Shown here one piece after another: positions 5,575-57,711 of a DNA stretch of 64,000 bases. Below the pieces are notes generated by a model. That model made no database searches and had not been told where the DNA came from. It saw nothing but the letters and a program-made list of their open reading frames with translations. Position numbers and translations under genes: made by a program. Positions within the stretch are counted from its first letter, which is position 1; every line of letters starts with the position of its first letter. The DNA is from an uncultured Phycisphaerales bacterium (GTDB taxonomy: Bacteria > Planctomycetota > Phycisphaerae > Tepidisphaerales > Tepidisphaeraceae), in assembly GCA_903871935.1 (NCBI GenBank), contig CAIQIQ010000111.1, positions 1 to 64,000 of the forward strand. The letters are read 5' to 3'.

Positions 5575-5685
5575 CGTGCGTGACAATGCTTTCGCTCAGC
5601 ACCAGTGGCACGGCTGACCCCAGCCGTAGCAGGACTGCCGGTGAAGCCGCTTCCTTATCTCTGACCGAAAGTGTTGTCACGTACG
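5575..5685. repeat. Miniature inverted-repeat element, family A, copy 1
   Basis: The left end CGTGCGTGACAATGCTTTCG (5575-5594) pairs with the reverse complement of the right end, CGTACGTGACAACACTTTCG, at 16 of 20 positions. Inside is a second short hairpin, ACGGCT gacccc AGCCGT. A second copy with the same ends and interior occurs at 55715-55820. There is no coding capacity. The right end abuts the stop codon of the XRE gene at 5687, suggesting insertion into or against its 3' end. Confidence 0.75.
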
Positions 5686-6464: not shown

Positions 6465-7781
6465 GGGCGACATAACCTCCTGTTTAGCTGACTGGCGGCG
6501 CAAGATAACGTCCCGGTGGTTCTGGTTACCATAGCTGCACAAGTACCTGATCGCAATGGTGTTGCGGCGGCAGACACGCCCGCCAACGCGGGGCCAAAAC
6601 GGAATCCTGAGCGGCCGGGGGAAATCAAGTCGGTCCGGGGGTGGCACGGATAATGAAAAGGGAAGCGTGACATTCCACTATTTGGCGATCACATCGTCAA
6701 CCGCTCCGGCGAACGAGACGAGTACGCGGTACGCACCGAGACGGGGCAGGCAGTGCCCATCTCCACCGATCCATCAGAACAGCGTTGTTTTCTGTGACTT
6801 CTGTGCTTTCTCGTGGCCAATCTTCTCCGTGCATTGCCCGTTCCTGGCTTGGAACTCCAAGCCGCTGGCGATCACTCTTCTTGGTGTCTTCGCACTTTGC
6901 CGCAGGGCCCGTTCTGTTAGCAATTCGCATGCCAGAGTACCCTAAACAAAATACGAATTTTGTTCGCCGCTCGTAAACCCTTATAAAACCTCAATCTCTT
7001 CTTATCGAATCTTGCAACAACCCCCTTATTATGGGGGGACGTGCTTTTTCGCGCGCCTCCGATCTTTGACAACCGAATACCCGTGCCACCACGACGCCCA
7101 AGGACTCACCGTGGGTCTCCATCCTCGCCCCCACCACAAGGCCAGCGATGTCACACTTTGTCACTCGATGTCATACATTTTGGGCGCCGCTCGCGTGCTC
7201 ACTCTTCACGCATCAGGACGATGTCCCAGATTGTCTCAAAATGTCCCACATTATTTCGCTCGGCCAAGGCGAAACCGAACCTGAGCATCTTCCTTCGCGT
7301 CATCGCGGCGCAGTTTACCCGCTGTGGCGGGCGGCCGCCGCGGCGCTTTTCGCCCGTGCTATCCCGGCTGCGCCGGGACTACACTTTGCTACACTTCCGC
7401 TACTAAAAGCGACACGTTGCTACACCCGTGCTACACGCGAACAGCCACCTGGAGTTGCTGTAACTCCAGCAGCCACCAGCGTTTCCCAACACATGCGCCA
7501 CCGCCGATGCTACACCCCCCCCAATCACGCGCCCCCTCCGCATTGCCTCTCGAATTGTAAGTTACTGTATCCGCACCGCTTACGTTCCCACGCCCCATCA
7601 TCTCCTCCCTGCTACATGTAGCACGCCCGCCTGACATCACAATGCACACACGAACCTGAGCATGTTCCTTCCCCATTTTGCATTTGCGCAGCGAACCTGA
7701 GCACCTTCATCGCTCTGCTCCGTCTTTCTGCTTTTGGCCTTTTAGCTTTTCCCGAAAGGGGCCTGTACTATTGGCTAACCC
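6465..7781. other. Long intergenic stretch without a convincing gene
   Basis: No frame here has the codon pattern of its neighbours; the open frames are short and change phase. Positions 6780-6900 hold a low-complexity tract of reiterated TTCTGTG/TTCTTGG words. From 6940 onward it is occupied by the repeat element described separately. The last 70 bases lead into the gene at 7782 without a clear Shine-Dalgarno sequence. Confidence 0.6.
6940..7707 (+). repeat. Intergenic repeat element L, copy 0
   Basis: Starts with CCTAAACAAAATACGA, then CGCCGCTCGTAAACCC and CTTATCGAATCTTGCA, then a small hairpin CCCCC-TTATTAT-GGGGG at 7021-7037 and TTTGACAACCGAATAC near 7080. The same order occurs at 57128-57285. 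The rest is a mosaic of reiterated short words: TGTCCCA/TGTCACA (7148-7250), TGCTACAC four or five times (7389-7615) and three copies of CGAACCTGAGCAYSTT (7276, 7651, 7692). It points toward the gene starting at 7782. Confidence 0.7.
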
Positions 7782-37282: not shown

Positions 37283-37600
37283 GGTAGAGGAACGTGTTTC
37301 TTCTCAGTCGAATACCCATACTCCTGCCAGATAAGTAGGAAATGCCACCCGAACTGCGCACACGATCTTGAGCGCCTTTGTCGCAATCGGTCGCGCGGAT
37401 TACCGAATGCCGCCAACTATGCACACGAACCTGAGCACCTTTCCCACTTCCTCCGTGCCTACATTCCGGACTTATCCACAATCCCATCGAACTTGATCAT
37501 TTCTTCCTGCGATTCCGTTCTAACTCCTCGTTAACACAAAACATAGCACCATGGTGGTATCCCCTCGAACAACCTGCGCACCTGCTACTTATCCACAGCC
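37283..37600 (+). repeat. Intergenic repeat element L, copy 1
   Basis: Contains a short form of the conserved core (GGAACGTGTTTCTTCTC then TCGAATACCCAT at 37296-37322), copies of the word at 37355-37379 (TGCGCACACGATCTTGAGC) and 37420-37442 (CACACGAACCTGAGCACCTT), and two TTATCCACA sites at 37472 and 37589. The second site is preceded by GGTATCCCCTCGAACAACC and GCGCACCTG, as in copy 2 at 57668-57708. The rest of 37601-37885 holds nothing recognisable besides the gdhA leader. Confidence 0.7.
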
Positions 37601-43257: not shown

Positions 43258-43455
43258 AAAAGATGCTCAGGTTCGCGTACGCAGTCGGCGGCGGTGTGTT
43301 ACGCTGCTTACCGTCTTTGGCAAAGATGCTCAGGTTGGTGTGCGCATCTCGGCGATCATTGCCTACTCGTCCGGTAGGAAAAGTCGTATTCGGTTGTGAA
43401 ATAGCGTGGCCGGGGTACGGCCGGGAGAGTGAAAAACATCCCTCCATAAGGGTCG
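43258..43455 (-). repeat. Intergenic repeat element L, copy 3 (minus orientation)
   Basis: Two copies of AAAGATGCTCAGGTT start at 43258 and 43322, 64 bp apart; their complement is the AACCTGAGCATCTT word of the other L loci. At 43386-43454 the minus strand reads ACCCTTATGGAGGG, then GTTTTTCACTCTCCCGGCCG, then TATTTCACAACCGAATAC, matching the core at 57210-57283. The element points toward the aminotransferase gene. The remainder, 43456-43735, shows no gene. Confidence 0.7.
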
Positions 43456-43735
43456 ATTTGGAGGGGGCGATTTTGGAAGATGAGGATTGGCAATGGTTTG
43501 CGCGCGTCAGGAATTCCGACCCGATTTTGGAGAGGATGGGGAATCTGGGTAAGAGTGATCGAGATAAATGTGCGGTGGCCCTGATACCTATTAGGGCGAG
43601 GGCGAGCGTTATTTAACGGACGCGGATCGCGCGCATCTCGGCCGGCGGGCTGAGAAGCGCTCCCTGCGAGGGTGGAACTGGCGTGGCGTGGGGTGGGTGG
43701 GGAGGTGATGATAGACCGCCATGGTTGTCTGACCG

Positions 43736-55659: not shown

Positions 55660-55714
55660 TCGCCCACTGCCAGCAAAGGTGCAAGCGGTCGAGCCATGGC
55701 AGTGCAATGGACGA

Positions 55715-55820
55715 GCGTGACAGTACTTTCGCTCAGCATCAGTAGCACGGCTAACCCCAGCCGTAGCAATCCTGCCGGCAAAGCCGCTTTCTTATCCTCT
55801 GCCCGAAAGTATTGTCACGC
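55715..55820. repeat. Miniature inverted-repeat element, family A, copy 2
   Basis: Left end GCGTGACAGTACTTTCG and right end CGAAAGTATTGTCACGC are near-perfect inverted repeats (one mismatch in 17). The interior repeats that of 5575-5685: GCTCAGCATCAG, ACGGCT aacccc AGCCGT, CCTGCCGGCAAAGCCGC. Length is 106 bp and there is no coding capacity. It lies 55 bp after the SGNH hydrolase gene. Confidence 0.8.
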
Positions 55821-56988: not shown

Positions 56989-57127
56989 CCGATTCCTCCC
57001 CTTTTTGAGTTGCTGTTTCCGCAATGATAGTCGCCTCGACGGGCTACTGTTTGATCGCCAACTCGACGATGATGCCGTAGGACGCTGGCGGCGACCATTT
57101 TCGCCAGCAATCCGCATGCCCCGTCTC

Positions 57128-57711
57128 ACCTAAAAAAAATGCGAGTTTTTCCCGCCGCTCATAACCCCTTGTCAAACCTCAATCTCCTCTTATCGAATCT
57201 TGCAGACGCACCCTTATTATGGGGGAACGTTCTTCCCCTTCCTCTCGGCCGTCCCAGGTCGACGTTATTTGACAACCGAATAACTGCGCCCCAAAAGCCC
57301 ACCGACTGCGTCGGTGGGTATCGAAGAGAATGCAGCGCGCGACACTTTCACATGTTTTCTGCACTAACTTGCACCCAAGTTCCTGTCCCACCGAGACTTA
57401 ACCCCGCGCGACATCGCTGCACGTATGCGCGCGACACTTTTGCCCCCTTCCCAACTCCTGCTCCCTCCATTGCTTACAGCACTCCCCGCCGCGGCCAAAT
57501 CGCCCGTATCGGCCCAATGTCGCGCGCTGCCAGCTCGTGTATGGTCGCTCATCCCTCCTCACCTATTGAGTGGATGACCGACTTATCCACAATCGATCAC
57601 AACTTGCGCACCTCCTCCCCACATCTCGACCTAACACCTTATCCCTGCAGCACATAGCTTCATGGGGGTATCCCGCCGAGAACTTGCGCACCTGTTCACT
57701 TATCCACAACC
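57128..57711 (+). repeat. Intergenic repeat element L, copy 2
   Basis: Carries the whole conserved block: CCTAAAAAAAATGCGAG, CGCCGCTCATAACCCC, CTTATCGAATCTTGCA, the hairpin CCC-TTATTAT-GGG at 57211-57223, CTCTCGGCCGTCCC and TTATTTGACAACCGAATA near 57283. Then come reiterated words GCGCGCGACACTTT (57337 and 57426) and AACTTGCGCACCT (57601 and 57681), and two TTATCCACA sites at 57583 and 57700. It is divergent from the DUF3303 gene and points toward the gene at 57767. Confidence 0.75.

Follow-up and report, generated by a model that had tools for sequence, protein, structure and literature searches.

The intergenic block that we call L, which recurs four times in the window (the whole 64,000-nucleotide stretch of DNA analysed here), is the front of a composite element made up of a structured leader, a boxA, a hairpin, short direct-repeat arrays and a terminal module. 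The unit is ~0.5 to 0.9 kb long, and its own genome carries ~100 copies of it. We read L, with roughly even confidence, as the core of a dispersed, non-coding composite repeat that is associated with RAYT genes and carries an rRNA-type boxA for read-through. The repeat is most likely a large and unusual relative of the REP/RAYT class of transposase-associated repeats.

Results

Copies and layout of the element

An earlier, sequence-only reading had matched a block at 57128-57285 to three other loci in the window, and for two of these the recurrence was confirmed outright. The blocks at 57128-57285 and 6940-7082 share 83% identity across 106 bp (blastn and alignment) and hold two words in exact form, TTTGACAACCGAATA and CTTATCGAATCTTGCA (15 and 16 bases), and 43386-43454 on the minus strand is a third good copy, whose core has one mismatch. 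The fourth locus, 37283-37322, is also a copy but a decayed one: the boxA core is gone, reading TTCTCAGTCGAATAC, while the usual R and D modules are still present up to 37597. These four are far from the only copies. Across the 6.3-Mb genome, TTTGACAACCGAATA at up to 2 mismatches has 106 sites, compared to 4 for the reversed control; the L block finds 44 places by blastn; and a covariance model, for which 33 copies were aligned, recovers 98 copies at E ≤ 0.01 and, with the threshold relaxed to E ≤ 1, 111; both are lower bounds, with 140 to 150 candidates scored. To place the copies among genes, we fetched 1.09 Mb around them and called genes with a simple codon-usage caller (~80% coding). Within that sequence 66 of 67 core matches are intergenic, giving the many intergenic copies that mark REPIN/REP repeats.

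The block as first delimited was too short. Shared sequence begins ~160 bp upstream of boxA (GCAATCCGCATGCC in type 1, CCCAAAATCG...GATTTTGG in type 2), alignments of full-length copy pairs extend from about -155/-160 through the whole of module D, and copy 1 runs on through an array and the terminal module to ~57709. Its limits, GCAATCCGC at the 5' end and TTATCCACAA at the 3' end, are also found in other copies. The features in the window are as follows.

57107-57709, plus: complete composite element, copy 1 (leader, boxA, hairpin, array, D), with limits common to other copies
57107-57285, plus: L block of copy 1 (leader and boxA), from the blastn places, an alignment of 30 copies and a covariance-model match at 57205-57322
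57268-57282, plus: boxA core TTTGACAACCGAATA, a word also found in the rRNA leader
57298-57318, plus: H3 hairpin after boxA, CCCACCGACTGCGTCGGTGGG, from sequence and the arm-swap test (42/2000)
57332-57530, plus: T4 array, direct repeats of GCGCGCGACAC with an inverted TGTCGCGCGC at the close, from sequence
57583-57709, plus: terminal module D, TTATCCACA ... GCGCACCTCCTCCCC ... GAACTTGCGCACCTG ... TTATCCACAA, from the D alignment
6920-7082, plus: L block of copy 2, boxA at 7065-7079, from sequence words, alignment and covariance model
7148-7181, plus: T2 array ATGTCACACTTTGTCACTCGATGTCATACATTTT, 10-bp-phased, after copy 2, from sequence and the 10-bp period test
7221-7258, plus: T3 array ATGTCCCAGATTGTCTCAAAATGTCCCAC, the second 10-bp-phased array after copy 2, on the same basis
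43345-43463, minus: L block of copy 3, boxA at 43387-43401 with 1 mismatch, covariance-model E=4.4e-20 at 43345-43458
43260-43338, minus: two R repeats (CCAACCTGAGCATCTT, CGAACCTGAGCATCTT) after copy 3
37283-37597, plus: copy 4, decayed, core lost, R repeats at 37363-37378 and 37426-37441 and the D module kept, with TTATCCACA of D at 37472 and 37589

The leader follows one order: CTTGTCA..CCTCA, CACCCC-TATTAT, a GGAGGG/CCCTCC hairpin (H1), a GGCC hairpin (H2) and then boxA. On the 3' side of boxA come the H3 hairpin, the arrays and, usually, the terminal module D, bounded by TTATCCACA. The arrays are of several types that combine variously (GAACCTGAGCACCTT/GAACCTGCGCACCT, TGTCACACTT, TGTCCCA, TGCCCCA, GCGCGCGACAC, TGCTACAC and GTGGAACAAAACGGAACG), and several of these types repeat every 10 bp; 34% of the copies in this genome show a 10-bp period. 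Array words occur only with L, the exception being R (14 of 16 regions), and none lies inside any gene; the T2 word is confined to L regions, and the T4 word was found in 7 intergenic regions, every one with L, and in 0 genes. This near-exclusive association with L regions implies that the arrays belong to the element. Of the 50 intergenic regions that contain the D word, 49 also hold L (p about 3e-56). Intergenic regions with L are ~0.9 kb longer than those without it in each gene-orientation class, and some copies are mosaic: L107 resembles L072 at 93% from -12 to +408, and L068 at 84% from -309 to +55.

Several smaller observations concern the same regions. In the D modules (57583-57709 and 37472-37597), as in most copies, a perfect DnaA-box word, TTATCCACA, occurs twice in one orientation at a spacing of ~115 to 130 bp; a DnaA-box interpretation was set aside, the pair being real in the copies of this genome and not seen in the elements of relatives. 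The end word TTATCCACAA has 78 sites in the 1.09 Mb, compared to 1 for its reversed control. Between modules, the L-holding regions contain many short low-complexity phrases with 7- to 10-bp periods (TTGGTCA, CTTCTGA, TCATCCT and CGTGTCTC). The window also contains another intergenic repeat pair, 5575-5659 and 55712-55796, with 86% identity over 85 bp and the start CG[TA]GCGTGACA.

The boxA core

The resemblance of the last part of the block to a boxA antitermination site, noted from the window alone, was borne out. In the same genome, the rRNA leader has GCTCTTTGACAAGTGAATAG / GAAATTGCTCTTTGACAAGTGAATAGTCGG, and TCTTTGACAAGTGAATA precedes rRNA-leader-like sequence in many family members, as it does here. 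The L cores read TCTTTGACAA or TATTTGACAA, then CC, CT, TC or GT, then GAATA, and the resulting pattern, T[CA]TTTGACAA..GAATA, has both the core of an rRNA-type boxA and the downstream extension of this lineage. Mean column identity in the alignment is 56%, yet the columns of boxA hardly vary. Judged by these words, the L core is the same boxA as in the rRNA leaders of this bacterial family.

In rRNA, boxA is a known cis signal that protects the untranslated transcript (PMC4807359). The rRNA-type boxA/Nus-factor leaders (PMC4807359, PMC5725501) are like L in their identical boxA core and extension and in their untranslated, structured context (here predicted from sequence). They are unlike it in number and setting: the ~100 copies described here are dispersed and unattached to rRNA, suhB or any gene class, whereas the non-ribosomal boxA of Escherichia coli suhB is a single gene-specific site (PMC4807359, PMC5725501). 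The sole NusB-domain match in the genome belongs to a 459-aa frame, an arrangement like that of RsmB, and a stand-alone NusB was not found there, perhaps because the assembly is incomplete (91.7%). An extra NusB paralogue in high-copy genomes was also considered, and none was found.

CRISPR leaders can carry boxA. CRISPR constructs with a boxA are described in PMC7862264. The elements resemble such leaders in having boxA ahead of an untranslated repeat array, but their ~10-bp units have no spacers, which led us to reject a CRISPR-like array, and they occupy ~100 loci, beside which cas genes were not noticed. In two relatives, G018 (L144/L182) and G008 (L145/L183), the boxA word GCTCTTTGACAACCGAATA followed by the palindrome CCCCTTATGGGG stands just before a cas1-like frame, between apparent cas6e and cas1 genes of type I-E CRISPR operons.

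The element in related genomes

Copy number is patchy among 25 genomes of the family: about 70 in the genome of the window, 55 in G022, 14 in G005, 12 in G021 and 0 in G001, which belongs to the same genus (~70% protein identity, short contigs). Among genera the range is 0 to about 100. G022, G005 and G021 share with the genome of the window only boxA and the overall plan; flanks and array words differ. Their arrays of 10-bp direct repeats mostly start 20 to 160 bp after boxA and use a different word per genome: ATGGTGCACA in G022, where the 10-bp period of 95% of copies exceeds the 97.5th percentile of shuffles, ATGCAACACC in G021, where that of 100% of copies does, and AGGGGGAGCAA, of period 11, in G005. 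Sequences clearly related to the leader (E=1.8e-5 and weaker) but without a recognisable boxA occur in the genome G004, and one of them (L277, about 2600-2700) is followed by a run of ~eight 10-bp direct repeats, GGGACAGGTT. Plasmids, phages and viral contigs gave no match to the element, and named GTDB contigs gave only sporadic single matches.

Linkage to RAYT genes and REP palindromes

A whole-genome search for Y1 transposases, through which alone the RAYT link surfaced, gave 14 places matching Y1 (IS200-like) transposase in the genome of the window, which has no rve transposase. Four RAYT genes form one clade (52 to 92% identical; C81 twice, C13 and C17), and each of the four lies directly upstream of an L in the same direction, with a gap of 0 to 0.35 kb, which is the RAYT linkage known from REPIN/REP repeats; four other, more distant RAYTs (41 to 47% identical) have no L behind them. 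Given that ~0.9% of genes are expected before a co-oriented L, the linkage has p=6e-6, or 2e-4 with the C81 pair counted once. The clade proteins match Pfam Y1_Tnp above its cut-off, and they match the NCBIfam REP-associated tyrosine transposase at E=7e-15, below the curated cut-off. At C13 a GGGGTCAG motif, TIRtron-like (PMC3733652), separates RAYT from L, and RAYT may therefore insert beside L instead of owning it. The elements fetched from G022, G021 and G005 have no neighboring RAYT gene, and clustering of flanking genes found no protein family enriched beside the elements as an autonomous partner would be. An apparent RAYT remnant precedes L at L115.

A second link comes from palindromes. 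In G022, 19 of 20 L regions contain GTAG-type palindromes (G[TA][AG]GGACAGGCATTCYTGCCTGTC, at most 4 mismatches), compared to 2 of 111 others (p about 1e-19), and all the palindromes point inwards, the upstream ones one way and the downstream ones the other. Such a bounding inverted pair, as in a REPIN, is present in G022 alone; the genome of the window has 0 GTAG-type REPs in its L regions, 17 of 66 of which hold CCCGGC..GCCGGG palindromes, compared to 2 of 537 other regions. The G022 REP palindromes (L147-L166) are nested and recur at about -160/-207/-270 and +200/+245/+285 around the boxA core and form a giant imperfect palindrome.

Like REPIN/REP repeats with their RAYTs (PMC3116915, PMC2817692, PMC3733652), the elements are dispersed, almost always intergenic and patchy in their high copy number, and they combine palindromic parts, which in G022 include flanking inverted GTAG-type palindromes, with linkage to a Y1 (RAYT) gene. 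However, REPs are 20 to 40 bp long (PMC3733652), whereas the present unit spans 0.5 to 0.9 kb with a leader, boxA and direct-repeat arrays. Because the copies in the genome of the window are without bounding GTAG palindromes, we place the element among the dispersed REP/RAYT-associated repeats, as a variant of its own, and do not call it a REPIN proper. Classical non-autonomous repeats such as MITEs, ERIC and NEMIS are likewise dispersed, intergenic and non-coding, but the 66 copies examined in this genome begin with GCAATCC... and finish with ...TTATCCACAA, and no terminal inverted repeats or target duplications were obvious by eye at these ends. IS21-like ends were rejected as the source of the arrays because the genome is without any rve transposase.

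The suggestion that L could be a non-autonomous mobile element is thus the half of the sequence-only reading that we favor, given a defined composite unit, patchy copy number, mosaic copies and links to a RAYT clade and to REPs. Its remark that no described family has this layout also agrees with our searches, which gave no Rfam, plasmid or phage match and no paper linking REPINs and boxA.

These same links could be taken further, to a repeat that works purely at the DNA level, with the hairpins and 10-bp arrays serving as transposase or recombinase sites and the boxA-like word as a passenger or a DNA site. Linkage to the RAYT clade and the inverted REP symmetry of G022 would fit, as would the 10-bp helical phasing, which suits protein sites on DNA, and the action of RAYT on single-stranded DNA hairpins described in the literature. 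We nevertheless consider this unlikely: the core matches the family's rRNA boxA from end to end, and it is the one part common to genomes with wholly different flanks, which is not expected of a passenger.

Covarying hairpins in the leader

The elements are non-coding, and their hairpins covary as in RNA. In our arm-swap test, the best helix between the two arms of each copy was compared to that obtained with arms exchanged among copies (2000 permutations), which preserves composition and leaves kinship of copies uncontrolled. H1 scored 13.82 with its own arms compared to 12.72 when swapped (0/2000), and H2 scored 13.34 compared to 11.45 (0/2000). The arms of H3 are weakly better matched within copies (12.74 compared to 12.08, 42/2000), and control windows gave 385 and 411 of 2000. 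H1 was also predicted independently by RNAalifold, and one of its pairs reads GC 9 times, AU 9 times and GU 7 times. The CCC-TTATTAT-GGG hairpin pointed out from the window, by contrast, showed no covariation among the copies of this genome (10.43 compared to 10.34, 669/2000), and the partner of its purine arm is instead a downstream arm of CCCTCC type. In G022 and G021 the corresponding arms vary too little for a covariation test. An Rfam search of the window returned only a tRNA and a cobalamin riboswitch (RF00174, 40479-40728, minus strand, 61.4 bits), and L had no match above the gathering score.

Covarying leader hairpins are also what stand-alone genes for non-coding RNAs would show, each with its own promoter, structured leader, boxA and array RNA, much like a CRISPR leader plus array, and with a product that binds a protein or RNA. 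The protection that boxA is known to give untranslated RNAs such as rRNA, the homogeneity of the arrays within one genome and the presence of elements in convergent and divergent gaps alike are in keeping with this idea, which ranks next among the alternatives and which we also regard as improbable. No conserved promoter could be assigned, and TATTAT was not taken to be a -10 box, since the covarying H1 arm begins immediately after it and would not be transcribed. Moreover, a range of 0 to 100 copies between genera would be odd if the RNA were needed, and the linkage to RAYT and REP is left unexplained.

Placement relative to genes

The weakest alternative, which we think very improbable, is that L is a leader RNA regulating the gene downstream, as first proposed from the four window copies, all of which precede a co-oriented gene. 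In the 1.09 Mb of this genome the downstream gene is co-oriented in 42 of 62 copies and opposed in 20, and the apparent rule that the element always lies just upstream of a gene and in its direction proved to be a sampling effect. The copies are divided among divergent, tandem and convergent gaps as 23/26/8, compared to 21.7/29.7/5.6 expected from intergenic length (p=0.46), so that no excess before gene starts is left once length is allowed for, and within tandem gaps orientation is 16:10 (p=0.33), without the consistent direction of a cis-regulatory leader. In G022 the tandem/divergent/convergent counts are 6/0/14, placing 14 of 20 copies between convergent genes. The neighboring genes, among them those for glutamate dehydrogenase, D-amino-acid transaminase and acetolactate synthase, are a mixed set without a common function. 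Given that placement tracks intergenic length and that the G022 version is strongly convergent, we concluded that the element is not the leader of the gene it faces, and a gene-specific leader was rejected on these placement statistics.

Discussion

Our best reading is that L belongs to a large repeat that resembles REPINs and has an rRNA-type antitermination site built in, its mobility and function being inferred from sequence patterns. Given the patchiness, the mosaicism and the RAYT/REP link, copies would spread non-autonomously, through a RAYT transposase and/or recombination. When RNA polymerase crosses an element, boxA would load NusB-S10, and the untranslated, hairpin-rich stretch behind it, which in the genome of the window is C-rich and G-poor, would be read through instead of terminated. 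An intergenic insertion would thereby be made transcriptionally transparent, which would explain why boxA is kept while its surroundings change between genomes.

RNA that is C-rich, G-poor, untranslated and hairpin-bearing is the kind that Rho terminates. In the genome of the window the elements are C-rich and G-poor over at least 450 nt on the 3' side of boxA, with C minus G at about +0.2 compared to +0.01 in other tandem gaps. This bias is absent in G022 and G021, and protection from Rho may therefore not be the whole story. In G022 boxA sits in the loop just before the second inverted arm, the position at which read-through would count for most.

A lineage-specific protein probably binds the 10-bp arrays. 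If their words turn over quickly between genera, the arrays may be in an arms race with a dedicated partner that binds DNA or RNA, or may co-evolve with it. More broadly, and only tentatively, we speculate that repeats of the REP/RAYT type have built in the rRNA antitermination signal of their host so that their insertions do not block transcription, while their 10-bp arrays turn over between genera.

Discussion of boxA has mostly centered on rRNA, phage, CRISPR arrays and a few genes, and here ~100 copies are dispersed in one chromosome. If our reading is true, intergenic repeats can themselves supply the means to counter transcriptional polarity, and array words that vary between genomes within a constant frame would offer a direct handle on the binding partner.
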